DNA of 64,000 nucleotides from Daucus carota subsp. sativus. Taxonomy: Eukaryota; Streptophyta; Magnoliopsida; Apiales; Apiaceae. The translations under genes were made by a program, and so were the position numbers. This document shows, one piece after another, positions 14,062-63,907 of the stretch (positions are counted from its first letter, which is position 1; each line of letters opens with the position of its first letter). Under the pieces are notes generated by a model. It ran no database searches. It had not been told where the DNA came from and was given only the letters and a program-made list of their open reading frames with translations. The DNA lies in assembly GCF_001625215.2 (NCBI RefSeq), contig NC_030386.2, forward strand, positions 24,150,545 through 24,214,544, read 5' to 3'.

Positions 14062-14133
14062 ACCAATTCCGACAGTGATTGTATCCATTTCTCCTCTGCT
14101 ATCTACTGAAGAGTTTACTACTTGCGCATAGAA

Positions 14134-14998
14134 ATGGGAAGGCAGCCTTGCTGTGATAAAGTTGGCCTGAAGAGAGGTCCATGGAGTAGTGAAGAAGATC
14201 GAAAACTCATTAACTTTATTCTCAACAATGGCATCATCTGCTGGCGAACAATGCCCAAGCTTGCAGGTACTAATTGCCAAGTCGTTATTAATTATGTCTC
14301 TCTCAGCGGGCTTTCCTTACATAAATTACTTGATACTGCAGGACTGTTGAGGTGCGGGAAGAGTTGCAGATTGAGATGGATTAACTATTTGAGGCCTGAT
14401 CTCAAAAGAGGCATGTTTACCGAAACAGAGGAGAATCAAATAATACAACTCCATGCTCTCCTTGGTAACAGGTATGTCTGCACTAATTATCACTGGGATT
14501 ATATTTAGAACCTTTGTGATTCATGCATTTGACATATTTAATTTTCTCCAATGCAGATGGTCTAAGATTGCCTCTCATTTTCCTGGCCGGACTGATAATG
14601 AGATCAAGAACCATTGGAACACACGAATCAAAAAACGAGTAAAAACCATCCAAGATGAGGAGAAAACACAAGTGAACACCGAGAGCACTGTACTGAAAGA
14701 TCAAGAACAGGCTTCAGAAACAACATTAACAGACAAAAATGTCCAAAGTTTCAATGCTGCAAACGAATACTTAAATCTTTTAGACGTGGAGTTATGGTTA
14801 AACCAAGAAACAATAGACACCTCAGGTTCTTACAGCACTTCATTTTCTTTGGAAGATTCTGTGAATCCATCAATGGGAGAATCTTTACATATTCAAGAAG
14901 ATTCTGTGCAGCAATGGGTTGATAGTGCAGATTCAATGCTTTCATGGGATGCCTTTTGTTCTTCCATTTTTCCTACGCACATATTACCAATTGTTTGA
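14134..14998 (+). CDS. R2R3-MYB transcription factor
   Basis: A DNA-binding regulator of 234 residues. The three exons are 14134-14266, 14342-14471 and 14557-14998, the standard R2R3-MYB intron positions, with joins inside [13 protein letters not shown] and GNR/WSKIA. It starts [21 protein letters not shown]2 runs from about residue 13 to 63 and R3 from about 67 to 115. R3 contains [20 protein letters not shown] followed by [10 protein letters not shown]3 lacks the bHLH-binding signature of anthocyanin-type MYBs. The first repeat resembles the MYB40/MYB99/MYB20-like clades, but the LGLDP-type motif usual after R3 in such proteins is absent and the acidic C-terminal region is short, so I give no symbol. 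Start chosen at ATG 14134, the canonical MGRxPCC start. Confidence 0.9.
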
Positions 14999-28190: not shown

Positions 28191-28573
28191 TACTACTAAT
28201 TTTAGAAAAAATTTGGTTAAATGACATATACTTCTTACATATATTAAAATGGGATTAGAAAAAAAATAATAAAATTACTGAATAGTTATTGATATAGGGT
28301 CATTTTCAAAAGAAAACCACTAGACAGAGAACCCGGTAACCCTTACTTTATTTTTTATATTAGTTAGGGTTCAGCAGTTGCACATGAAAATGTCTTATGT
28401 ATATATTATGTTTTTGAAATTATTTCTGAACACACACAATGATGAAAAAAATATATATTTAGATTTAGATCATAAAATATGTAAAATATAAGATTCTGCA
28501 ATGGAACCTTAGTAATTTTATGTTGTTATTTTAAACATTGATTCTCTATTGAGTACGATCTTGATATATATAT
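28191..28573. other. AT-rich flank of the MULE
   Basis: Nothing is recognised. The last nine bases (28565-28573, TATATATAT) are the left target site of the MULE. Confidence 0.4.
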
Positions 28574-28801
28574 CGGATTGTCTATCCTGTGCCCTCAGGG
28601 CACAGGTTAAGCTAGTTAAGATGCTCTCTTTTTCTGACCCAGCACCTTGTCCTCTCTCCTGTTCACGTCAAACTAAACATCATAATTAATACTTTCTCGA
28701 CTACCGTGTTTTTTTCTTAACCTTTTCAATTCTGAGAAACTTTCATTTAAAAATAAAATTATTAATAGATTTTTTTTGTTTTACAATAAGTAAAAATATT
28801 A
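28574..28801. repeat. Left TIR of the MULE
   Basis: Inverted copy of 32519-32744. It contains the outer palindrome CTGTGCCCTCAGGGCACAG, then GGTTAAGCTAGTTAAGATG, and runs inward to TTTTACAATAAGTAAAAATA. Confidence 0.9.
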
Positions 28802-29697
28802 ACTTAATTTATTTGGTTTTACTCTTTTTACATATTATAAATATATAAATAAAAATATATAATTTTATTATGTTCACTGCATTATATTTAAAATATAAAT
28901 TATTTGGAACTTGATAAACATGAGGTCAAAAAAATCACGTGTACTTCAATTTTACATTATCATTTATTTGATTTAACAAACATTTTACATATGCTAAAAA
29001 TATAAATATGTTATATGCAAATTTGAACAAAAAATAGCATATGAGAAATATAAGAAACATAAAATTAATAATATTTGTAGAATTTCAAACATTCAAGATA
29101 TTGTCATTACAGTAGATTTAACAATAACTAATATCATATATATAAATAACATAATATATTTTTATTTTACTTTAATATTCTTTACTCTTATTTTTATATT
29201 AAACTATATATTTATTTTAAAATATTAATTTATTTTATTTTTACTATACTTATTTTATTTAATAATAAAATAGTATAAAGTTTACAAGATCAACAATTTC
29301 TAATAACTTGTATAAAAATTTAACAAAGCACACATTTTTATAAAAATAGCAAACATCAGATTGAAAAGTAAAATTATGCATATCAATATCAATTGTCCTT
29401 TGATCTTCTGCGCGCCAAAAGTTTGAGATACCATCCTTCTCCGTCTCCTTGTTCCTTAATCACATTATTCACCTTATGATTTCATTCTTTAGTGCTTATA
29501 TACAGTGCTTATATCCAGAAACTCAAATCTAAGCAGAGTCACCGGTACTACATAGCAGGTATTAACACTAACTTTACTTCTTTGTAATTTTGTTAGTATT
29601 GTTAGTATACATAATGTGTGATGTAGGTATGATATGTGTATATACTCTTAAATAATTATATTTTGATTTAGTTTAATAATGATGCAGAGGTTATAAT

Positions 29698-32056
29698 ATG
29701 ATTGATTTGAATGAACTCCCCACTGATGATGGTGATGGTATTAGTTTTAATACATGTGGTGGAGAAATAGATGAACACCCTGTTGAAAATAATTTTGAGC
29801 CTTTTCTTGGTCAATCCTTTTCAAGTGAAGAAGAAGCTTGTAAATTTTATGAGATATATGCCAAAAGAAGTGGTTTTTCTGTTAGAAAAGGAAGATTCAC
29901 AACAAGTAAAAAGGATGGAAAAGTGAATAGGAGAGATTTTTTTTGTCATCGTGAGGGATTTCCTGATAAAAAGATTGTGGATGTGAATAAGAATCAAAGA
30001 AACAGAGAGTCTACACGGTGTGGATGTAAAGCCTCAATTCGAATACTCTTGAAAAGATCTTTTGAGATTTTTCCGGAAGAATGGCATGTTACCAGATTTG
30101 TTGTGGAACATAACCACAAATTATTGCCACCTGATCAAGTACGTTTTCTTCCATCTTACCGTGCAATATCAAAAGAAGATGAAGAGCAAATTTTATTATA
30201 TAAAGAAGCAGGGCTCTCTGTTAGACAAATAATGAGGGTGATGGAGTTGGAGAAAAATATGAGACACGGAGATCTTCCCTTTTTCCGTAAGGATGTTCAT
30301 AATTTCTTAGGAAAAATTCGTCAAAAAAATGGACAAAATGATGTGATGAGTCTTCTGGAGCAGTGTAAAGTGGAGAAAATTGAAAATCCAAATTTTCAAT
30401 ATAACTACACAGTTGATGAACAAAATAGGTTGGAGCATATTTTATGGGTACCTGCATATTGCTTCAATGGCTACAAAAAGTATGGAGATGCTGTGGCATT
30501 TGACACAACATATAAGGTAAATTATTATGACATGCCTTTTGGCATATTTGTTGGAATTGACAATCATGGAAGAACAATATTATTTGGTTGTGCTCTGCTC
30601 AGGAATGAAACCCTGGACACATTTCAATGGCTGATGAAGGTACAAAATTTATTTGTAATAATTATATATATGACTATATATATATTTGTTTATAGTAATA
30701 ATATTTTATATTCATAAATTTATATAGTTGCACATATATAAATTTTAATATGTTTAAATTTATTATTGTTTTGGTTGACAGACTTTTGTTACACTCATGA
30801 GAAAGCCTCCTCAGACTATCATTACAGATCAAGATGCATGTATTAAACAAGCTATCAAAGTTGAAATGCCATTCACTAAGCATGCATTTTGTATTTGGCA
30901 TATCACCTCAAAATTTAGTAGCTGGTTTACCTCAATTCTCAGGGAGAAATATTTTACTTGGTGTGGTGAGTTTTATAAGCTTTATAAGTTGGATAATATT
31001 GAAGATTTTGAACATGATTGGCCTGAGATAATTTCAAAGTATAATCTGCAAGAAAATAAGCATATCAAAGGGTTGTATGAAGTGAAAGAATTTTGGGTAC
31101 CATCCTATCTCCGTGGATATTTTTTTGGTGGCATGACAACTACAGGGAGATCTGAAAGTATAAATAGTTTTGTAAAAGGTTTTACAAATTCTCGCTCAAG
31201 TTTGACTCAACTTATGAAACAAGTAGGTTGTTTTACTTAAAAGTCATGTATATTATTTTAATTTATTGTGTTTTAAATTTATTGATTTTAATATTTAATT
31301 CTATAGGTTGATCTTGCTATTGAAGATATTGGACAGAGTAACCTACATCACACCATGTTGGATACTTACAGAGGTTCATCTTTAAGAACGTTGTCACCTT
31401 TGGAGGAGCAAGTGTATAATCTCTTCACAAAATTTTCTTTCAAAAAATTTCAAGAACAGTTTGAACGGGCAACTCTGTACCAGGTATCTAAATTGACCCC
31501 ATCCATTTTTAAGGTGAAGTATTACAAATATTTACATTCACAGACACATGAGGTAATATGCGAGAATGATGTAGTGAGTTGCAGTTGCAAAAATTTTGAA
31601 TTTTGGGGAATTATTTGTCGTCACATATTGAGTATGTTTCTCCATGAAGATCATTTTCAAATTTCTGTTAAGTATTTGCCATTACGTTGGTGTCGTGATG
31701 AATTTCAAGATGGCATGAGTGATCATTATACTTGTGAGACTATTCCTGAGAATTTTTATCCATGTGGAGAGGAAATAGCTGTTGAGGAAGAAGGTATGAG
31801 ACGTGATCCTGCAGAAATTGTTCAGTGCCCTCCAACTTCCATCACAAAGGGACGTCCCAAGAAAGGAAGAATGAAAAGTGGAAAAGAGCTGGCCAAAAAA
31901 TCTAAAAGATGTAGCTACTGTAAGATAGTTGGTCATAATGTTACAACTTGTCCAGAAAGGGGAAATTTTAGTGTGAATCATGAGGCAAAAAGGAAGAAAA
32001 ATCAAGAAGACAAAAACTCCAGCAGCATAAATCCTATTTTGTGCTTGAAAATCTAG
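29698..32056 (+). CDS. FAR1/FHY3-type MULE transposase
   Basis: A 710-residue protein from exons 29698-30639, 30782-31222 and 31307-32056. Domain order: FAR1 DNA-binding domain (about residues 46-142; EEEACKFYEIYAKRSGF, zinc-ligand candidates C83, C108, C110, H138, H140); DDE/MULE transposase core with D269 in VAFDTTYK, D330 in IITDQD and E439 in GRSESINSF, and the CxxH-like FCIWH; SWIM zinc finger C553, C555, C565, H567; and a C-terminal CCHC knuckle C663, C666, H671, C676. It would bind the TIRs and cut and join the element ends. FAR1/FHY3 light-signalling factors share this architecture, but here the gene lies inside matched TIRs, so transposase is the better call. No internal stop was seen. 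Confidence 0.9.
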
Positions 32057-32518
32057 AGATCTTGTTAAATTTATTGTAATGACTATGTCTTGAATCTTTG
32101 AAATTCTAATATTAAATTAATGTTTCTTATATTTCTTAAAAGTGCTATTGTTTATTTATTTTTTTGTTTAAATTTGCATATGCTTACATATTATTAATGT
32201 TAGATAATTTCTCTATAATTTAAATAAAATACGTGTATTCACAATAACATATTTATATAAAGATGATATATTAACTTCAAAAATAATTATTACAATATAT
32301 TATATTAAATTATATATTAAAATGTCCAACTGCAAAATTTAAAATGTGTCGTGGTGTTTAACATGAAATATAGAATATATTACAATATACATTGATATTT
32401 GAAAATTGAAAATATTATAATATATTAAAATATAATAATTTATTATTTTATTTATATCTCTGTTATAAAATATCAGAAATATTTTTACTTATTATAAAAT
32501 ATCATTAATAAAGTAGAA

Positions 32519-32744
32519 ATATTTTTACTTATTGTAAAACAAAAAAAATCTATTAATAATTTTATTTTTAAATGAAAGTTTCTCAGAATTGAAAAGGTTA
32601 AGAAAAAAACACAGTAGTCGAGAAAGTATTAATTATGATGTTTAGTTTGACGTGAACAGGAGAGAGGACAAGGTGGTGGGCCAGAAAAAGATAACATCTT
32701 AACTAGCTTAACCTGTGCCCTGAGGGCACAGGATAGACAATCCG
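32519..32744. repeat. Right TIR of the MULE
   Basis: Inverted copy of 28574-28801, ending GGGCACAGGATAGACAATCC plus G. About 460 bp of AT-rich non-coding sequence separates it from the transposase stop. Confidence 0.9.
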
Positions 32745-32753
32745 TATATAGAT

Positions 32754-34300: not shown

Positions 34301-36997
34301 CAATTACATTCACATCCCGTCGTATCGGGAACTGGGTATTCTGGTGAGGCGATAGGCATATAGTACCGGTTATATGTATTTATTCCTGTCGCTAGCTCAT
34401 TTTCAATTTTTGTTTGATTTCAGATTCGAAGACCATTATCACAATTCTACAAGGTATCAATTTCTGCTTAACATATTTTCTTGGTTGTTCTTTCATGTTT
34501 CTGGCGAGGTTTTGTATGTATGTTATGTTTTGTGTATTTAGGTATAAGAAATATTCTTGATTTATCACGTTGCGAATTTTCTAAAATCTCGAGGTGTTAG
34601 GGGGAGCCGCGAAAGATCTCCTTAACAGAATAACAGGGTAAATTATAGTGATAGACTGATAGATGGACAGCAAATAGATTTAGTTAACCCTATATCTGTA
34701 CTTGTCTAAACTCTGAACTTGTTATACACTTATACAATGAGCTGCACTTTAGTTATTCAATCTTGTGATCTGCTAAATAAATGTTTCAGTTGGATATATT
34801 AACCTAACCGTAATTCAACGTTCAGTCGAAGCATCCTACCTTAATCGTCGCAATTGGGTGCTTCTGATGCTAAAGTGGTATTGGCTCCAAAAGATCAAAT
34901 ATGGATACTTATAGGTAGTAAATTTTACAAATTTCCCTAGTAGGTTACGTTATTAACTAAAACTACAAATAACTAGTATATGTTTTGTTCAATTTAATAA
35001 AGTTGGCCAAATGTTACATGAAATAATGAAAAGGAAGAATAAAATTTATATTTTAGATTTAGGGGAGAAAGTGGAAAGAACACTAGCAGGTGGTATATTG
35101 TGAATTTGTGATAATTGTGGTTTCCTAATTCTGTATCTTTTGTCTAGAGTTCTGATCCCTGTCTTTACTTTTCAATCGCTGGATCTGCCTAGGTGCATAG
35201 CAGCTTGTGCACATGACTATATTGAGGTTTCATACAAGTATATATATATAAATGCACTTGCGTGTGACTAAATTATTTAGATGCTGTATGATGCTAAAAC
35301 CAATGCGGTCTGTTATTAGTATATGTTAGAAACACTAGTAGAGATGATTGTCAGAAAATGTGCTTGCATAATAATATCCACTACAGGGGATATCTTATGA
35401 TAATGGTGGTTTCTTTTCTCTATATTCTTTGTCCAGAATTCTTATCCTGGTCTTTAATTTTATAATCTTAGGTGTTTATACACTAGTTAACCGAGGCTAT
35501 TAGAAATCTAATTTGTGAGGGCTTTGTCTGTAGTTAAATTGTTTGTGTATGCAATTGTTTTTGAGGATCAAGTATCATCATGTATAATTTTGCTTTTAAT
35601 TTTTCCCTATTATTGTAACTAAAATATGTGATAGTATAATTATGTTGGACTTTTTGTTTACTCATACTTTAACAAGGGTTGATACTTGATAGTAATAATA
35701 GAGCATGTAAAAATACCTCCGGGATAGAAATGTTTCTAGAATATCCATGGATAAGTAATCTTCCTGAAGATAAAATTCTCTCCCCATGTCAAGATTCTTT
35801 TATCATTATTATCAAGATCTAGAAAGTTTTAGAACACATTGTATTGATGTTGGAGATTAGATATGGTAAACAAGTCGGATCTCTCATGGAGAAGAACACA
35901 TGAACATGTACATGTCATATGCTAAGAATATTTCCCAACCAGAATTCATTCACAGGGCCCAAACTAAGAAGAATGGAAGGTTTAGGCATTCCAAGTATGA
36001 ATGAAGGAACACTTCATTCTGTTTGTCAAGCTTAAAACCTGTATCATTCCTCTATAAATTCTCATTCATTACATATTTTGGTTCATAATGAAATACGGAT
36101 TTCATATAACTCAACTAAAAGTTTTTGAAGTATAAAGTATAAACTGTGCAAACTTAATAAATTTGAGCTTATTGTAATTGCATTTTTTAGCATGCAATGT
36201 TTTTTAATTATTTTTGAATTTATTCTTGCTTGTTATCAGTTAAAAATTCTTGAATTAATACTTGCTTGTTATTAGTCAACATTGTCATTTGATTTTTACG
36301 ATATCCCTCGCCTGCATAATTAGAAAGGAGCATTGTCCAAGGGGGTTGACATTATGTTTTTACAGGAAAGAAGTTTTTCTTTTTAGCATGCTATTATGTT
36401 TTTTCTTAGACAACTGATCATTGCCTGAGGCAGCAGTAACTGGGCTGACCCCTGGGAAGCAATTTTAGTTCATCATACTTCTTCTATAGTTCTATTTCTA
36501 TATAGCCTGATTTAGTTTCAAATATACTTGCATTAGTCTGGAATGGTACTTGCTTTTTAGTGACGCAATGGGTGGAGCTGTCTATTTCTTGCATAAATGA
36601 AATTACTTTTTGGTTATATATATTTTACCTGTTGTGCATGATCAAATACTTATTTCATGTTATCAAGCTGACGTATTTTAATGACAGAAGCCTTACTCTT
36701 TTAAAATATATACAACAAGATTTTGTCTGACGAAGCGCGTCGTATAACATAGGTGATGGGCACTTTATGATTTTTGTAGTGCTGGTTTTTGAATCAATAT
36801 GGAGATTGGAGGATAGAGAGCTAATAGACTGAGTAGTTATGAACTAAAATTGTCTTTTCTGATTTAAGTAATTATCACATCAGTATATTATTGATGTTAT
36901 TTGGTGGAGATTGTGATTATATTCATCTATGAGACTATGATATATTTTTGATGCATTCTCATTAACGGTCTACTTTATTTAGATTATTTTGTGAAAG
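34301..36997 (+). other. Probable split 5' leader of the 173-residue gene
   Basis: A leader-like segment ends near 34452 at CTACAAG|GTATCA, a good donor. An acceptor TTTATTTAG near 36982 lies just before ATG 36998. This suggests a 5' UTR with one or more introns spanning about 2.5 kb. The internal sequence is AT/T-rich, intron-like, with no other gene. Inferred without transcript data. Confidence 0.4.
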
Positions 36998-37519
36998 ATG
37001 GCAAACCCGAAGCAATTATTGAGCAAAGTTTTTGGAAAAATGAACTCTGCTCGAGTTATGAGGGAACTCTATGCAGACGCAACCCTGAAAAGCACCAAAA
37101 GTTTCCATGCACTCTGCACCACAGAGAAAAAGGTCGGACTTTCTGGAATACCACTGCACCACTATGGATCAAGCTTTCAACGTGGCATCCCTGGATTCAA
37201 GTGTCACCAAGTAATCCCGGGAGTCATGTCTCAGGGAGAAGTTTTTGCAAGGGGATATGCATCCGGAGGTGAAGCTATGCAGAAGGTTAAAGACGAGAGT
37301 CTAAAGCACGCCGGACGTGGTGTTCGTTCAGTGGCCAATGCTGGACGAAGTAGCAGTGCATCTGAATTTCAGGAGATTATGGCAGACTACGTGCACCAAG
37401 AAATGACCCGAACTTGGATCTTGGTCCTAATGAGATTGTTCCTGATTATTGCAGTCAAAGATGTTGTCGTGTCTCTCGTGTTTTCAGACTCAAAGGATGA
37501 GGCAGGTAACATAGATTGA
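36998..37519 (+). CDS. Uncharacterised plant protein, C-terminal membrane segment
   Basis: A single coding exon of 173 residues, starting MANPKQLLSKVFGKMNSARV. I do not recognise the family. The N-terminal part is basic and lacks a clear signal peptide, although an organellar targeting role is possible. The middle is Gly/Ser/Ala-rich (GYASGGEAMQKVKDESLKHA, GRGVRSVANAGRSS). A hydrophobic stretch near residues 140-162 (WILVLMRLFLIIAVKDVVVS) could be one membrane helix, and the tail is acidic. Codon use and the clean ATG context (GAAAGATGGC) support a real gene. Overlapping frames in this stretch are shadows. No function is proposed. Confidence 0.75.
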   Translation: MANPKQLLSKVFGKMNSARVMRELYADATLKSTKSFHALCTTEKKVGLSGIPLHHYGSSFQRGIPGFKCHQVIPGVMSQGEVFARGYASGGEAMQKVKDESLKHAGRGVRSVANAGRSSSASEFQEIMADYVHQEMTRTWILVLMRLFLIIAVKDVVVSLVFSDSKDEAGNID

Positions 37520-38223
37520 CGAGATGAAGTGAAGCAATTGCATGAAATTCGAGACAGAAACGAGAGGTTTGGTGCAAGCGATTTATCTTATAGACATTTA
37601 TATTTGCTTTAAGTTTTGTAGCAGCAGCCAGCCAACTGGTATCTCTAGTTTGAGGATTGCTTTAGAATAAAGAATCAGCTGATGTAAATTGTGGATCATC
37701 TGCTTGTTTCCTTGGTTATCCCATATTATGGTTGCATAATAAGAAACTTCATTTCTGAGTTGATGTAGTGATGTCCTCAAAATGAACCTTTTTTTAAACT
37801 TCATTTTCATGTTTGCCTATGCAAAATAATATTAAAAATTTTCATAGAAATATAAAAATGTGCTTCCAATTTTTCTTATCCCAAAATAAAATTAAATATG
37901 GTCAAGATTATGGTGAACTTAAAATTCAACTTTTTTTAGTTTTTCACCTCAAAATAATGATTTGCGTTCGTTAAATTATCCAAATTTTGACCCATAATAA
38001 TATATATTATTCAATTTTTTTTTAAAAATTATATCATTGATATATATAATTATTGTAACATATATTTTTCAGTTTTTAATAATTAGAAAAAAATACTTTT
38101 TTTATTTACCGTCAATATTCGATATATTCTCAGGCGGGGAGAGATTATCAGTGGTATAGACCCTGGCCATTTCAGTTGAAATCAATCCCAGAATCACCTC
38201 GAATTCATAATTATTCTCCTCTA
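37520..38223. other. 3' UTR, spacer and ATP12 leader
   Basis: Contains the 3' UTR of the upstream gene (to about 37800), an AT-rich spacer and the leader of the ATP12-type gene. No further gene. Confidence 0.5.
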
Positions 38224-41200
38224 ATGGCGCTAAATGTGATCAGAAAAACCCTAATTTCCCTAAACCCACTTCAAATCAAACCCCCCTTTCCCCAATCTCG
38301 CCACCTCAGCTCCGCCGCCGCCGCCGTGGCCTCCTCCGACGACCCATCATCGTCATTCAGCTTCTCTGAAGCTCCTGAAAGCAAGCCGGACAAAGACGAG
38401 AGCATATACGTGAAGGGGGTGCCCAAATCGACGCCGTCGTCGTCGGTGACGATGCCGATGTCGTTTATGACGGGGTCGATAGTGGGGAAGAAGTTTTACA
38501 AGAAAGTGAGCACGAGAGAGGCTGAAGATGGGAATGGGTGGCATGTTATGCTTGATTATAGGACTTTGAAGACTCCGTCGAAGCGGCCTCTGAAGTGTCC
38601 TAATCATTTTCTTGCTATGGCTATAGCTGCTGAGTGGGATTATCAGGTATACCCATTTCCAAGTACCCGAGAATTTTATTCGTTTATCGAGATTATTCAT
38701 TTATTGAGGTTCTACTGGATGTTTGTGCATCTGCTATATTGTACATTGCACCAAGTAAACTATTATCGAGCTTTTTAATCTACTTGATTTGAATTATATG
38801 TGTAGTTAATTGGATTAAACTGAAATGTTTTGGGGGGGGGGGGGGGGGGGGGGGGAGGGTTTGTGGGCTCAGTGTTGTTTTAGATACTGAAGTGTAACAA
38901 GTTTTACCTTGACTATAATTTTCGGGATTTGAGCCAGTCTTTTGTGGGGTTATGGTTATAAGTTTTTGATGCAACAGTGGAACTTGGTAATTATCCTAAG
39001 CAGCTGCCAAGTTATATTTTTGTATCAAGGAACCTGTTTTAAAATTTGGTGGGGCTGCGTGGAACATTATTTTTTAGGTAAAGATCGAAGACAAAATGTC
39101 CATTTTCGGCAAAAAGTGGTGGAGTATGGGAGAGACCACTGACAGTTACTATTGGGTCTATTTCAATTGAGGACCAGCTGAATAGGAAACCAAAATGAAA
39201 AATACTATGGTGTATCTCTTTTGATAATCAGGTTCAACAGCATTATTGTTAAACCGCAGTTGCATGTACCCCAGAACAATAGTTTATATTCCAATTATAA
39301 ATGTGTTGAACCCTGGCGGTTCTCATTGAATACTGTATTGACATGCTTTGTAATTGATTCAATCCTTGTTACACTTTGCTTCGTACTTGGAATGTTATAA
39401 AGTTAGCACTGTAGCCTTGCAGCTTCTAAAAAATGAGAACAAATTAGAAGGGGAACTAAAAGTTGCAATTTTGATATGTTATCACTATAAAGCTTCTTTT
39501 ACTTTATCTGAAATTTTCTTTTTTCTTTAATTTTACCTTCTATGCAGCAGCCAGTTATTTAGTGGTTGAATCTGCATTACTCCGTTCAACTAATTAGACA
39601 ATTGTATCAAAAAAATAGAAACTCAACAGGATTATGATACAGTTTTATTGTGCTAGTATGTTTAGCTGTATTATAGCTGTGGATCACCAGATCAGTGGAA
39701 GTATTATGGCAGGAAAATTGCAAACAGATTTTGTTCTCCTGTTAGATAAGTTTTTAATTTATTATTCTGATTTTAAGTATTCATGAATTTTCTGCAATTG
39801 ATATTCACATTTATTGTAAGAAGTAAGAATATCTTTGATATTTCTCTGTTTGTAGCTAATCATATCATATCAACATATTTTTTTGTTTTGCTTTGTTTTT
39901 TAACAGTTTTAATGGGCTTTCTGTTCTTTACTAAGATTGCTCAAAATGAAACTACTGTTTTGTATCTCAAATTTCATGATTTTCTAAGTTTCTTATCGTG
40001 GATTATGGGGAATTTATATTTAACGATATGGTGATTGTAGCAAGCAGATGGAATCAGGCCATTCACTATGCCTATTATGAAGCTTGCATGCACTGCTTTG
40101 GAAAGAGTTCCTCTCACAAGGTCGAAGATAATCGATCATTTGATGCAGAGGTTTCCTCAAGATTTGGTATTCTGCCGTGCTCCTGGAGATAATGACCTTA
40201 CTAGTGGTGTCCTTGGTATGTATATTTTTAATAATTCGAATTACCTTATTACTTGTTTCAAGAAAATAAGATAGTCAGATGTTGATGCTAAGTTGCTAAC
40301 TGAACTGGTTAACAAATTTAAGCTATGCGTGTAGCCCTTTAGACCTAAAGATGGATTTTGGATGTAGGAAAACATTTGTCTTGTCCTGTGATATAGATGT
40401 CATAACATGTTCTTTTATGACCCCATTTCAAATGTAGGGTGATGAAATTTCAAGACTCGGTTCCATATTTTACTCGCTATGCAGACCTGCATCTTAAACT
40501 TAATTTGCCTAATAGCCAGGGGCTTCTAATATAGTAATATAGACACTGTTATAGTATGTTGATGTGAGGTACAAACTGGTCAATGGACTCTGTTAGTTGC
40601 TGAAATAAACTTAGGGATACTACAGCATAGTACGTATCCGATAATTATGATCTAATTAGGGACAACAGACAGCCTAGCAATTAGTAAGCACTTATGATGG
40701 GTTAAAGCTTGTAATTTAACTCTGCATTTATACTCAAGTTAGTTATTTTTTTAGGCCAACTAGAAGTGCCATTTTAAGTGTTTGATTGTGTATTAAAGTT
40801 TTCACTTTCTAAGCTTCACTATGGAGATCTTTATAATTTATTAATTTTGCCTCGCGATTTTTAATCTGCAGAACGGCAAGAGGAGAAGATTGATCCTTTA
40901 CTTAAGTGGGTAGAATCTGAGTTTGGCTTTAAGCCTGTACTATACTCCAGCTTTTTTGGGGGTAAGCAGGATGACGGACTTGTGAATGCAATTAAGAGCC
41001 TCCTCAAAGCAACAAATGACTGTGAATTGGCAGCTATTGATGCTCTTGCTTCGGCAGCCCACTCTTTAATTATTGCCATTGGAATCTTTCGTGGGAAATT
41101 GCAGATTGATGAAGCCATCGAATTAATCAGACTTGAGGAAGATTTGCAGGTATCTTAAAATCCCACGCCTTTGACCCAAACTTTCCAATGATGCAAGAGA

Positions 41201-43148: not shown

Positions 43149-46100
43149 TTATGCGCCTTTAGCCTCAAGCTTCTTGATGTTGCTGATCTGCTTTCCAGGG
43201 TTCAGTCCCTTGGGGCAGGCACGAGCACAATTCAATATTGTGTGGCAACGATATAGCTTGAATTCATCATTGATTGCATCGAGTCTTTCACTAGTGTATT
43301 CATCTCGGCTGTCCATAATCCATCTGCACAAAACAAATTATTCAATCCAATATAAAAATCCACTGAGAACCTCCAATATATATGCAGTACCGAAGACAAG
43401 ATAATACGACGATAAATCCACCCATTCTATACTATCATTGTAGCCTGGTGGATACCCCTCCTCTTTCTGTAACAAGAGGTTGAAAGAGGCACAAGTGTGC
43501 AAGTACTAGACACATACCAATTCTTCTTCAAAAAACATTTAACGATTTTATTTGAGCAAATGAAAGGCTTAGCCATTGCTGTATAGGATTAGGGATCTTC
43601 ACTTCATACACCAGAAGAGGAAACAGTTACTTATTTAAGTACTGGAATTATACAAATACAAGATGGAAGTATAGTATTACTAAAGAAATCGCTTCAGCCC
43701 CATACATGAATACACATCTTTGACAAACTTGAAGATGCAACAACAATGTTGTCACATGGAAGATTATAACTTCAAAATTGTCCGAAGCAGTGCTAAAGCG
43801 ATTTTCAACAATAAAAAAAAAATACCAAAAACTAACCTAATTTATAAAGTATTTATATGATTTTTTTTATAACAAGCAATTTATTCAATAACACTGAACA
43901 ACAGAAAGGCCACATAAATCAACAAGTAGATCAGATCATCACAAAACGATGAGCTCCTTATTAACTAAAAAAGTTAATTTTCCACATTGAAAGACCAGAG
44001 TTTATCATCAAACTCATTTGAAGAATTAATCAAAAATATCTCAATAAATATTTGTAACATATGCCCAAATCGTACAAGCTGATAACAACCATTGTAAGCA
44101 TAACATGACAACTTCTCTCGGGATGACCTGTAGTCGGGAAAAACAAGACAATATGCAAACTGTATATGGCTCACCCCTCAACCCATTGAAATTTATCTTG
44201 CTTTGTTTTAAGTTACAAAGTCGCATGCTATAACCTTGCTTGATGAACTACTGCTCTACACAAGAGACTAAACCGGTAAGAGAAGTGCAACCAGTAAAAT
44301 TATCACCACCTTTGCTTGCAATATAACAAGTATATATTATCATATCAGGCAGCTATAGTTTTGCTTACAGGTTTCTTGTTGATGCAAAAAATGACACTTC
44401 CAGAGAATACTTAAAACATGAATCATAAATCAAATTTTTATTAGTAAGCAAATAATCACATGAGGCAACTGGTAGTTTGCTAACTTATTCATGTTGATGC
44501 AAAGAATACTTCCCAGATGGACTTGAAACATGAAACATTACGCAGTACTACATGCACCAGCTCTGACTTAATTCCAGTGCTAGTGTAAAAAACACAAGTA
44601 GAAAATCAGCGATATGCCAATATGTTAAAATGTCACAACGAATCCACACATAATCTACCACAGGACAGGGGCTATTATAGTTCACATGCCCAGCTACTAA
44701 ATAATCTCATATGAATAAGTAACCTTATATAGCAACAGCAATCAGAAATCACAACATCATAGGCAAAGAAATGAATAGTGGGTGCTGACTACGTACAAGT
44801 TCCAGCATGCAAGTCAAACCCAATTGTGTGTAATACAACACAGCATTTAGTTTATCTTTATCACAGTGAAAAACAAATATAGTGCAAGAAGCCTAGAATG
44901 CTAATTAAATCATCCATTATACAAATCCTTTCACCAAAATGTATTCAAATAAGGAATTATGTTTTCAAACAAATCGCTTCAAACTCCACCCGAAAGATCT
45001 CCTCAAAGAATTATTAAATAATAGTGATAAGAGAATTAGAGAATCCAAAAAAAAATTCTTCATAATGAATCGCATATGGGGATTTGACTGATTTGAGCAG
45101 GGGAAAACCTTTAACCAAATAACGCAATAGCAGTACACAAAAGAACAGTTCAACACACTATATAAAACAGCATTACCAAGCTAAAGACCCAGGAACTGAA
45201 TGGCTGTATCCTGTATATAAGAACTATGGCTCATGAGTGACTCCAAAATAAAAGTTCAAACCATTTACAAATGAACCAACCTCGAGCACAATTTGAGGCT
45301 CATTAGGATCGAGTCGACTGTGAGCATGTCAAACTCTGCTTAAAGATCACAAGCTAGCATTGTTATAGATCAAGAGCAGGTTCACATTTAAAAAATCAAC
45401 ATTTTATAATGAATAATACATTATATATGATAAATTTATACACTTACGTTGCGGTCACTTGGATTGAATGGAATGAGTAGGGGATAGAATGAAAGATTAT
45501 AAAGAAGCTTTATGGAGAAAGAAGAAGATATGAGAAAGTAGTGACTAAATACAAGTGAGTCTAAATTTTCTATATTGAAAGGAATGAGTAGGGGATTGAA
45601 TGAAAGATTATAAAGAAGCTTTATGGAGAAAGAAGAAGATATGAGAAAATAGTGACTAAATATAAGTGAGTCTAAATTTTCTATATTGTAGATTGTAGAG
45701 AAACATGATGAAGAAGTAGAATGAGCATTCCTTCCAAGAGATGGGTTAGATTTCTATTGCAAATAGCTTGGAATGGAATGAGTTGAGTTTCATTTCATCC
45801 AAGTGAACGCGGCCTTAGCCTCTTCTAAATACTAACCATTGATATTCATATTGTTTCATAAATGGATAAGCCTATTTTCCACTTAGCCGAGCTTGCAACG
45901 AAAGCTCACCTAAGCACAGTTCAATACATTTCTAATTACTTATTCTGCATAGGCCGGCCAATACAAAATAAACACCTTAACCAAGAAAAAACATAAAACA
46001 AAGCAAAATCCATTCTAAATCAAAAATCAAAAGATACCATATACACAAATACGACAAAATGAATGACGAAAAAAGAAAAGATACCTATTGGCATGAAGAA

Positions 46101-46746
46101 GCGCAGCAGGGCCAAGATAAGACTCAGGATTCCACCAATAGCTGGGACAAGAAGTACTACAACAAGCACACAAAATACACTCATACATCCCATCCAACTT
46201 AGCCCTATCTTTCTTACTCTGCAATATCTCTTTCCCAGTTTTATTCTCACTCTTCCTCTTCAACCAAGGCTCAATACTCTTATACTGATTATAAAAATTA
46301 GTCATATCCACCACCAAATCTTTAATCACAAACATATGGGGCAATGGGGTGATCATCGAAGCCTCTTTCGCATCCGAAATCTTTGTCAAACAAGCCAACC
46401 CATTACACCCATCAATGTTCATAGCACAAGACCCACAAATCCCCTCCCGACAAGATCGCCGAAAAGTCAGGGACGGGTCAAGCTCGTTCTTAATTTTGAT
46501 AAGGGCATCTAGAACCATGGGCCCACATTCAGAAAGATCGATTTTGTAGTCCTGCAGCTGGGGCTTCGACGGGTTTTCGGGGCTCCATCGGTAGATTTGG
46601 AAGGTCTTGAGCGTGGGGTTGGATCGGGCCGTGGGCTCTCGGGTCTGGGACTCGATTTCGGTGGCGTGGGCCCTAAAAATTTGCAGTTTTGAGAGCTGGG
46701 TCAGATGGGGTTTCGTGATTGCGCGCCGGAGAAGGCTGGTCGCCAT
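43149..46746 (-). CDS. SDH2: Succinate dehydrogenase iron-sulfur subunit, mitochondrial
   Basis: Subunit B of respiratory complex II, carrying electrons from succinate oxidation to ubiquinone in the inner mitochondrial membrane. 278 residues from two exons on the minus strand (46746-46085 and 43323-43149), with a 2.76-kb intron. Residues 1 to about 45 form a presequence ([20 protein letters not shown]). The plant-type 2Fe-2S ferredoxin domain has C99, C104, C107 and C119 ([20 protein letters not shown]). The C-terminal ferredoxin domain has C190, C193, C196, C200-P ([18 protein letters not shown]) in exon 1 and C247, C253, C257-P ([20 protein letters not shown]) in exon 2, for the 4Fe-4S and 3Fe-4S clusters. 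All expected ligands are present. The intron carries a MITE at 45447. Confidence 0.96.
45447..45814. mobile_element. Harbinger-like MITE in the SDH2 intron, with internal duplication
   Basis: Inverted ends: CACTTGGATTGAATG on the left versus the reverse complement of CATTTCATCCAAGTGAACG on the right. TTA flanks both ends (45444-45446 and 45815-45817). Inside, a unit of about 111 bp starting GGAATGAGTAGGGGAT is tandemly repeated (45470 and 45581) with few differences. Confidence 0.75.
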
Positions 46747-47547
46747 TTTCTTGATGCAGAGGTGTATGTATAGGTGAGTGTGTAATTGGGTTGCTGTGTT
46801 TTTTTGGAGAAGATGAATGTATAGGTTAGTGTGATTGGGTAGGTCTTTTTGTTTTGTGGGGTTGGTGTGAAATGACGAAAATGGGGTTTTTATGATTTGA
46901 GTGTGATGTTGGGTTTGTTGTGGGGGAGGGAGTGTGAATAGGGTTGAAAGGTAGGGGTAGATTTGGAAATGTGGGAGTTTGAACGGCGGTGTGATGACGT
47001 GGAGGGATATTCGCCGTCCGGTGGTCGTGTGGTGAACTCGTGGAGATGTGTAGGCTTGGAAATGAACTAAAATGTTGAAATAAGTGATTAATCATTTATA
47101 AAGCCCATTAATTTTTTTCTTTAGCGAATTTAGCACACCAATTAAACACGTGAACTTTTAACTCCTTTCATCTTTTGGACAACCAAAATATATAATCCTA
47201 CTCTCATTTCATTAATCATATTTGTTTAAATAATTTTTTTAATAATATTCATCGTGTTCTTTATCTCAGACAAATTTTCTGTTGGTTTTGATACTAGTGA
47301 TTGCTAATTCAAATTCAAATATTTTTAAAAATCATTGTACAAACTATAATTATATTTAGTTTGACGAATGAGAATTCGCTATATTTTTTTTATAATGATC
47401 GAAAATAAGAATAAAGTTTGATACTGTATTTAATATATGCGAAACTTGTAACATGAAAATGAAAAAGCAATAACTAAAAATATGGGCCAAGCCCATTACA
47501 TTCGCGTGCAGATCAATATTACATGTATTCGTCATATTAGCGTTTGA
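46747..47547. other. SDH2 promoter region and spacer
   Basis: G/T-rich on the plus strand next to the SDH2 start, then AT-rich. The minus-strand frame at 46826-47095 is a Pro/His-rich product of skewed composition and is not called. Confidence 0.45.
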
Positions 47548-61808: not shown

Positions 61809-62092
61809 TTAGCCAACCAAATAAGTTGCCATAAATCTTATCGTACATCGATCATCCCAATGTTTCACAAGTCCGTCAGGCATCAATCAAGGTTAACGTG
61901 GTGAAATGCACTTATTCGTAAATCCAGCAACATTTTAGCTCATCTACTTTAAACAAACATATTTGTTACATTTCAAATCTAGCAATAGTATTCAATTTCA
62001 ACACCCAACCGTTTTCTTTATTTATGTTCACAGTTGAGCAGCTCCACCCCATTAAGCTCCCTTAAAAACCCCATCTCGCAGATTCATTTTTC

Positions 62093-63907
62093 ATGGCTTC
62101 TTGTCCTATGGATCAACTAAAGTCTCAACCTTTATGGGTTCTTGCTCTTCTAACTCTCAGTTCTTTGTACTTGCTCAAGTTCTTGTTTTCTATTCTCAGA
62201 TGGGTCTATGTTAATTTCCTCAGGCCTGCAAAGAATCTCAAGAAATATGGTTCTTGGGCTTTGGTCACCGGACCCACTGATGGCATTGGTAAAGCTTTTG
62301 CCTTTCAATTGGCTAGAAAGGGTCTCAATCTAGTTCTTGTGGGTCGAAACCCTGAGAAGCTTAAGGATGTTTCGACTGCGATTCGAGCTAAGTTTGAGAG
62401 AATTGAGATTAAGACTGTGGTGGTGGATTTTTCTGGGGATTTGTCAGATGGGGTTAAGAGAATTGGGGAAGTGATTGAGGGTTTGGATGTTGGGGTTTTG
62501 ATTAATAATGTGGGGATTTCGTATCCATATGCGAGGTTTTTTCATGAAGTGGATGAGAAGCTGTTGGCTGATTTGATTAAAATTAATGTTGAAGGGACTA
62601 CTAAGGTTACTCAGGTAGTGTTGCCTGGAATGATTAAGAGGAAGAGGGGGGCAATTGTTAATATTGGTTCCGGTGCTGCTATTGTCATTCCTTCGGATCC
62701 TCTTTACTCAGTTTACGCAGCAGCCAAAGCGTAAGCATTTATATTTTTGTGGTTTATGTTTTTCTATATATGATTTGTGTGATCTGATTGTTTATTGTGT
62801 GTGCATATTTGTATGATCTGTTTGATTGAATGTTTAGTAGCTTAATTATATCTGATGAAGCTGGTTTTGAATCTTGTTTGACGTTTGATGTCATGTAAAA
62901 AGAGTTGAGGGATCAATATCTTGTGTAAGTCCCACAGATAGATCTGCATTAACTTGATTAGTTATAGTCTTTTGTGTGTATAGACTAGAGACTATACCAT
63001 TGCATGATTACAATATTACTGTGAAGTTAGGTATAAAGAGATGAATAATATATTAAACTCAATATGTTTTGAACACCTTTATTAACAATTATTATTGGCT
63101 AATTAATGTATATAAGACATTAGATCTCATCCCAAGAACAAGTAATCAACTTAGATTGCACTGAGTGAAGCTGACTAAAATTGTACAAACCAGTTGAAGT
63201 TGCTTCTGTTGTACACTCTGAAAGTGGCCATACAGTCGTATACAGATTGAACTTCACAAGAATAAGCGAGGTCATTATTTTAGACAATCATTCCACATGG
63301 ATACATCTTGTGCAGGTCTTCATTGAATATTGAGCTGATGCCAGTTTATCCTGGAAAAATTTAAATTATTATTTTGTGTGGTACTTTTTATGACCTTTTT
63401 GTAGAAGGACAAGTAAGAATAATGTGATGAGGTATACTACTTGTAGTTTGCATTTTGTTCTCATCTCATTTGTAGGTATTTTTTTACATACCAGATGGGG
63501 ACCGCATGCTACTCAATGTCTAGCCTATACTGTAAAAAATTGGTCAAAGCTGATGTGTGCTTAATCTTTACCTAATCAATTATGAGGAAATTGTATGTGA
63601 AATTTAATTTAGAAGATAATATCACATAATATCAGGCTATTTATTGCTTGGTAGGATTTTATTATGAAGATTTCCGCATCATAACTAGCCCAACTTCGAA
63701 ATATAAAGGGGTTTACCATAGATGATTGGACGACATGAGTATATTGCAACCTTAAATATGATTACACTTTGCTTCCCATTCTCTTCCTACAAGTGGTTAG
63801 AAAGTCCCTAACTATGACCTCATTGGTTCATTATCAGATATGTTGATCAGTTCTCAAGATGCCTCTATGTGGAGTACAAGAAGAGCGGTATTGATGTGCA
63901 ATGTCAG
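62093..63907 (+). CDS. KCR1: Very-long-chain 3-oxoacyl-CoA reductase (KCR1), N-terminal part
   Basis: The NADPH-dependent reductase of the ER fatty-acid elongase complex. It reduces 3-ketoacyl-CoA in the synthesis of very-long-chain fatty acids for waxes and sphingolipids. Exons 62093-62730 and 63838-63907 give 236 residues; the rest lies beyond the right edge (family about 320). A membrane segment lies at about residues 14-40. The Rossmann motif TGPTDGIG has G60, G64 and G66; NNVG follows LDVGVLI. Then comes the catalytic segment NIGSGAA and YAAAK (Y208, K212). Exon 2 continues [20 protein letters not shown], matching plant KCR. Asparagine is kept in NN, but the usual NNAG reads NNVG. The intron (62731-63837) has no other gene. 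KCR1 means closest type. Confidence 0.93.

Follow-up and report, generated by a model that had tools for sequence, protein, structure and literature searches.

Structure of the Element

The window, a 64,000-nucleotide stretch of carrot DNA (Daucus carota subsp. sativus, contig NC_030386.2, positions 24,150,545 to 24,214,544 of the forward strand), harbors a 4171-bp Mutator-like element (MULE) at window positions 28574-32744. It consists of a gene for a predicted FAR1-type transposase enclosed by terminal inverted repeats (TIRs), with a palindrome close to each tip (Table 1). The 227-bp TIRs occur together with a MULE-type DDE transposase and a target-site duplication (TSD) whose 9 bp fall in the 8-11 bp range of MULEs, and the protein combines the N-terminal FAR1 domain (recognized by Pfam) with the C-terminal SWIM finger (Pfam) and CCHC knuckle (pattern) of the Jittery type. 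A preliminary description of the locus had proposed a mobile, apparently intact FAR1-type MULE, and this proposal is borne out by the TIRs, the TSDs, the open frame, a further copy on C3 and the non-autonomous relatives described below. Its details hold as well: the TIR alignment covers 227 nt with 5 mismatches (about 227 bp and about five had been claimed), the 9-bp flanks match at the claimed 8 of 9 positions and TSDs of this length recur across the family, and the outermost palindrome is present in exact form at both ends. This palindrome, CCTGTGCCCTCAGGGCACAGG, begins at element base 13 and spans 13-33 bp from each end. A further inverted repeat, which sits inside the TIRs, appears to be older than these. 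Its left side consists of three pieces, whose complementarity to the right side amounts to 95%, 90%, and 87%.

The transposase gene is predicted to be spliced at GT..AG junctions, and the three-exon structure proposed earlier gives a frame of 710 residues with no internal stop. Among the zinc modules of the preliminary description, FAR1 and SWIM are upheld by matches which, like that of the MULE domain, exceed the Pfam cut-offs; the CCHC knuckle is recognized by its spacing pattern only, no Pfam model matching it up to E 1. The proposed catalytic residues lie in the motifs AFDTTY (D269), IITDQD (D330), and GRSESIN (E439). Their candidacy is supported by the equivalent positions of 18 other transposase open reading frames (ORFs), which by eye have D at the first position in 16 cases, D at the second in all 18, and E at the third in all 18, although L052 has lost the motif around this E. 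A search of solved structures returned nothing that matched at E 0.01.

Table 1. Features of the element in window coordinates.
Feature	Position	Strand	Remarks
Left target-site duplication TATATATAT	28565..28573	.	matches right flank 8/9
Left terminal inverted repeat	28574..28800	+	227 bp, 222/227 identical to right arm
21-nt tip palindrome CCTGTGCCCTCAGGGCACAGG, left end	28586..28606	.	exact, 10-bp arms
Older inner inverted repeat, left side	29013..29129	+	pieces 29013-29034, 29044-29073, 29078-29129
Predicted transposase exon 1, residues 1-314	29698..30639	+	open frame, GT donor
FAR1 DNA-binding domain, residues 49-144	29842..30129	+	PF03101, E 7.3e-24
MULE transposase domain, residues 266-357	30493..30910	+	PF10551, E 2.1e-26; spans intron 1; contains D269, D330
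Predicted transposase exon 2, residues 315-461	30782..31222	+	AG acceptor, GT donor
Predicted transposase exon 3, residues 462-710 and stop	31307..32056	+	AG acceptor, stop TAG
SWIM zinc finger, residues 543-574	31550..31645	+	PF04434, E 1.6e-5
CCHC zinc knuckle, residues 663-676	31910..31951	+	CX2CX4HX4C spacing pattern
Older inner inverted repeat, right side	32057..32181	-	starts directly 3' of stop codon
Right terminal inverted repeat	32518..32744	-	227 bp, 5 mismatches vs left arm
21-nt tip palindrome CCTGTGCCCTCAGGGCACAGG, right end	32712..32732	.	exact, 10-bp arms
Right target-site duplication TATATAGAT	32745..32753	.	matches left flank 8/9

Copies and Relatives in the Genome

Other copies were sought in a genome assembly that totals 441,086,747 bases over 11 contigs. 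The TIR search, which scored the best 40 of 65 candidates and thus sets a lower bound on copies, yields at least one other close full-length copy, located on C3 and 97.8% identical to the window element (62 mismatches over 4165 aligned bases). Shorter, non-autonomous relatives of 0.5-1.9 kb share the same tips and mostly have 9-bp TSDs. The gene of the C3 copy is broken: a 14-base deletion takes out the predicted start codon, an 8-base deletion shifts the frame, and 15 of the 18 coding substitutions alter the protein. Its TIRs differ by 1 mismatch in 228. Near-perfect TIRs round a dead gene suggest either that another element's transposase mobilized this copy in trans or that its gene was lost shortly after insertion, gene conversion being a possible alternative cause of the similarity of the TIRs.

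A script found 16 end pairs, the window and C3 copies included; the TSD, scored as the best of several offsets and lengths, matches at 9/9 in 10 pairs, 8/9 in two, and 7/9 in one. At one fixed offset, a test that leaves out L011, L017, and L035, the 13 remaining pairs match their own partner at 7-9 of 9 positions; cross-pairs reach 8 in 2 of 156 cases. The 13 TSDs have a G+C content of 6% and are mostly not TA repeats. Plant substitution rates range from 7e-9 to 1.3e-8 per site per year. With these rates the divergences translate into roughly 0.6-1.6 million years, an age that homogenization of the TIRs could bias and that agrees with the young TIRs of the preliminary description.

When the two flanks are joined as an empty-site query, the right flank matches itself alone among the matches listed. 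The left flank (about 28440-28573) is a repeat with 41 other matches listed: 18 end at or before the junction, 22 extend 1-12 bp past it, and one extends 35 bp. The element appears to be inserted near the edge of this repeat, and the matches amount to no more than a hint that an empty site exists there. The neighborhood is gene-rich: ORFs at 14110-14508, 36995-37519, 38083-38778, 46027-47091, and 62066-62734 of the window match Pfam models, namely MYB DNA-binding, cyclophilin-type isomerase, ATP12 chaperone, 2Fe-2S domain, and short-chain dehydrogenase.

Recurrence of the Tip Palindrome

A 32-base tip pattern, searched with up to 3 mismatches, occurs at 73 genomic sites including the window element, the reversed control giving 0. 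With the left arm fixed as bait and the right arm free, which avoids selecting for symmetry, 62 sites are found (control 0); the right arm is at least 8/10 complementary in 53 of them and 10/10 in 31. The converse search, with the right arm as bait and the left one free, gives 113 sites (control 1). Nearly all departures in the 62 left-bait tips break the pairing and are uncompensated; among the tips listed for the right-arm bait, both arms are altered together at C2:49499134. Many other tips have TAACC in place of TATCC on the left, and with GGTTA on the right the palindrome becomes longer. Folded as single-stranded DNA, the tip of the window element reaches -10.8 kcal/mol (z -4.63) and a variant with a longer palindrome -13.2 kcal/mol (z -6.23). 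The preliminary description had considered the palindrome as a hairpin or a symmetric binding site; its recurrence across the genome strengthens this view without proving it.

After 56 wrong-strand palindromic matches and 4 near-identical tips are dropped, 42 tips remain, in which identity to the window element is 93% over the palindrome, 89% over the first 10 bp, and 74% over the 27 bp inside it. This profile gives weak support to the palindrome, because the loci were chosen by patterns or TIR matches that cover both the palindrome and the first 10 bp. The papers listed by a search of paper texts for the letters of the palindrome are all unrelated by title, supplements and most subscription papers lying outside the search, which therefore does not show the motif to be new.

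Related half-sites are seen in three relatives, C8, C1, and C5, which over the first exon share 90%, 66%, and 62% identity with the window element and whose tips at one end read TTGTGCCCGGAGGGCACAA, ATGTGCCCTAGGGGCACAGG, and TGTGCCCAAGGGCACA, respectively. TGTGCCC and GGGCACA are kept in inverted order at both ends of C8 and at one end of C1 and C5. Spacers of 2, 3, or 8 separate the half-sites in these relatives, those at the second end of C8 lying 8 bp apart. The half-site pair pattern TGTGCCCNNGGGCACANNNTAAG, which the C5 form fits, has 1,425 exact sites in the genome (728 + 697; control 0). The middle is AT at 1,100 of them (563 + 537), giving TGTGCCCATGGGCACANNNTAAG, and AA in the C5 form. 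Among the first 100 TGTGCCCATGGGCACANNNTAAG sites, 28 neighboring plus/minus pairs span 161-167 bp, and there are no other neighbors within 400 bp. These paired sites mark the ends of a compact and abundant family of miniature inverted-repeat transposable elements (MITEs), for example at G000:C1:2953645-2953809; the 16-bp motif close to the ends of the MITE is palindromic throughout. Mutator-like MITEs of carrot have been published, the largest family listed there having 542 copies (PMC8227079). A different arrangement occurs at L071 (C4:44754700-44759500), where two palindromic tips lie 4.5 kb apart and a 9-bp repeat, TTTTTAGAA, was read by eye. Between these tips there is no ORF of more than 127 residues, and the transposase search lists no match there; L071 is possibly a carrier of captured DNA.

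Other FAR1-Type Elements

The transposase search, which scored the best 63 of 1003 candidates, returns at least 73 matching stretches, corresponding by our own count to at least 58 loci including the window element. The comparison set mentioned above consists of 18 other loci of this genome, whose ORFs match the Pfam models of MULE, FAR1, and SWIM in 18, 17, and 13 cases; the CCHC pattern is found in 7. Thus, there is nothing unusual about either the FAR1 domain or the knuckle. The preliminary description had regarded the C-terminal knuckle as an added module, a view that is abandoned here, given its presence in 7/18 other ORFs and the listing of CCHC for the Jittery group (PMC6446971).

Palindromes with a shared 8-mer arm lie on both sides of the ORF at 9/18 loci, compared with 0/28 control pieces of similar layout; several of the loci are near relatives, and the control pieces overlap and all come from the window. 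The other 9/18 loci, L052 and L060 among them, fail this two-sided test. The half-sites differ between elements (CTGTTCCCTGAC, TCCAGCGCT, CCCCGCAATG, TCCGCGG, and TATAGCGT). When up to 2 mismatches are allowed, the CTGTTCCCTGAC form gives 170 genomic sites, each counted on both strands because the form is self-complementary. Near FAR1-type ORFs, 95 palindromes occur in 84.7 kb, compared with 6.8 in shuffled sequence. Ordinary DNA of the window, with 24 in 56 kb compared with 2.0, also exceeds its own shuffles, so the shuffle comparison overstates the case; what stands is a 2.6-fold excess over this ordinary DNA.

At L065 (C8:16190500-16197500), a FAR1-type ORF lies inside 243-bp inverted repeats that match each other at 94%. 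Each end carries palindromes, CTGTTCCCTGAC-8-GTCAGGGAACAG being located at the tip and CCCCAGCCGTTGGATC.. further inside. TCCAGCGCTTAAAAAGCGCTGGA-like palindromes flank the FAR1-type ORFs of L049, L050, L053, L055, and L057. FAR1-MULE-SWIM ORFs are also present at L052 (C4:38058000-38064500) and L060 (C2:39470500-39477000), where neither an inverted repeat nor a palindrome was found in about 2 kb on each side; these two are candidate domesticated genes.

Comparison with Known Systems

With Jittery-type MULEs, represented by maize Jittery and by the "sub-group Dicots and Monocots" of the Jittery group, the carrot element shares the single transposase ORF, the domain order, and the TIR length: a survey of MULEs lists for this group a FAR1 N-terminus, a SWIM or CCHC C-terminus, and TIRs of 39-292 bp (PMC6446971). 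In contrast to that listing, SWIM and CCHC occur here together, and the listing mentions no tip palindrome. CitMule of citrus is likewise Jittery-related, with FAR1, MULE, and SWIM domains, a multi-exon gene, and 9-bp TSDs; its proteins, however, have 805 residues (CitMule_3, _4), its transcript has five exons, and the available description mentions no tip palindrome (PMC4334395). MuTAnT/AutoMuTAnT of Medicago also resembles the carrot element: its transposase is Jittery-like, its TSDs are 9 bp long, its targets are AT-rich, its TIRs contain foldback modules, which the authors compared with Jittery and FARE1, and its small non-autonomous copies are numerous (PMC4486113). Unlike the carrot targets, which are AT-rich and mostly not TA repeats, those of MuTAnT are (TA)n microsatellites, and its TIR mask, GGGGTTTGCTAGAACA, is a different one (PMC4486113). 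Microsatellite targeting of this kind was rejected for the carrot family, the 13 TSDs having 6% G+C yet being mostly not TA repeats.

A palindromic terminal TIR motif and more than 300 putative non-autonomous derivatives are described for Muta1 of Aedes aegypti, in which, unlike here, the palindrome is a 10-bp imperfect one accompanied by subterminal tandem repeats and the transposase, from a mosquito, has 504 residues (PMC5225508). The transcription factors FHY3/FAR1 have the same order of FAR1, transposase-like, and SWIM domains; in contrast to the carrot protein they are domesticated, and they bind CACGCGC, a motif absent from the palindrome (PMC6000157). The preliminary description saw in the element a direct view of the type from which these factors arose. 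This is right in kind, although such elements have already been published and matches to the transposase occupy at least 58 loci in this genome, the window element included.

Interpretation and Alternative Explanations

The locus very probably contains a structurally complete Jittery-type MULE with a FAR1-MULE-SWIM(-CCHC) transposase, for which the palindrome would provide a symmetric core site and which would move the shorter elements in trans. Placement in the Jittery type fits the domain order, the single ORF, the TIR length, and the group survey (PMC6446971). An open frame of 710 residues that encodes FAR1, MULE, and SWIM domains, like FHY3/FAR1, could also belong to a domesticated FAR1/FRS gene that lies by chance between inverted repeats. 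Such a coincidence is extremely improbable: domesticated transposases are described as generally present in a single copy and lacking TIRs and TSDs (PMC2528002), whereas this gene lies within 227-bp TIRs with 5 mismatches and a TSD, and has a broken, near-identical, TIR-flanked counterpart on C3 as well as non-autonomous relatives. The explanation was rejected because TIRs surround both this gene and its second copy; that copy and the shorter relatives, mostly with 9-bp TSDs, argue for a mobile element rather than a domesticated gene. A stronger competitor, with a substantial chance that falls somewhat short of even, is an immobile relic that is intact by chance and silenced, in a family whose last activity dates back about a million years. 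At least two close full-length copies exist, with no more among the scored candidates, the TIRs in the window differ at 5/227 positions, and the C3 copy is broken, all of which speaks for a relic; against it, the C3 TIRs differ by 1/228 despite 62/4165 differences from the window element overall, which suggests a later insertion of that copy, homogenization of the TIRs being possible.

The function of the palindrome is open to a separate alternative, namely that it acts as a DNA hairpin (cruciform) in transposition or replication and not as a site for a protein dimer. The folding energies of both tip variants and the varying length of the spacer between families are consistent with pairing, and foldback ends are known in MULEs (PMC4486113, PMC5225508). 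However, the half-site letters are kept and the departures in the 62 tips are nearly all uncompensated, so that sequence recognition fits better than pairing alone. A hairpin role is unlikely, and a putative symmetric transposase-binding site is the most likely reading of the palindrome.

Several observations weigh against a mobile element with such a site. The TSD in the window is low-complexity, and a match of 8/9 is weak on its own in AT-rich DNA; the flanks of the C3 copy (TTCGAATTA/TTCAAACTA) match at 7/9 positions, three of the 16 end pairs (L011, L017, L035) have poorer or differently spaced TSDs, and there is no clean empty site among the matches listed in this genome. The TSD of 9 bp differs from the Jittery survey, which gives 8 bp or no indication (PMC6446971); TSDs of the Jittery-like MuTAnT and CitMule are also 9 bp. 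The palindrome is imperfect at the second end of the C5 relative, and no such tip was found at the second end of the C1 relative. Furthermore, paired compensatory changes are rare, and shared descent alone could have kept the palindrome, because across the 42 tips conservation of the first 10 bp (0.89) comes close to that of the palindrome itself (0.93), compared with 0.74 just inside it.

Under the preferred reading of a mobile MULE, the transposase, probably as a dimer, would bind the palindrome via its FAR1 domain and bring the two ends together. The DDE site, whose cutting chemistry is deduced from the conserved residues, would then cut, excising the element at its TIRs, and insertion into AT-rich 9-bp targets would follow, staggered by 9 bp. 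This transposase, or one related to it, would also mobilize in trans, as passengers, the shorter elements that share the tips. Because CACGCGC is absent from the palindrome, the specificity of the FAR1 domain must have shifted, if binding occurs as proposed. It is possible, though rather doubtful, that FAR1-type MULEs of this genome generally end in short palindromes with family-specific half-sites (TGTGCCC in the window element; CTGTTCCCTGAC, TCCAGCGCT, CCCCGCAATG, and others in other elements), each palindrome being a symmetric recognition site that has co-diverged with its own FAR1 domain.

As a transposon, the element is ordinary, one more well-preserved copy in a known group. More important are its palindromic tips, at which FAR1-type transposases may bind and which connect a full-length source with its small non-autonomous relatives. 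Should co-divergence prove true, these families would form a natural series for reading out DNA recognition by FAR1 domains, including those of FHY3/FAR1. If the binding site is confirmed, a comparison between the half-sites of each family and the FAR1 domains would make DNA recognition directly testable for the domain ancestral to these light-signaling factors.

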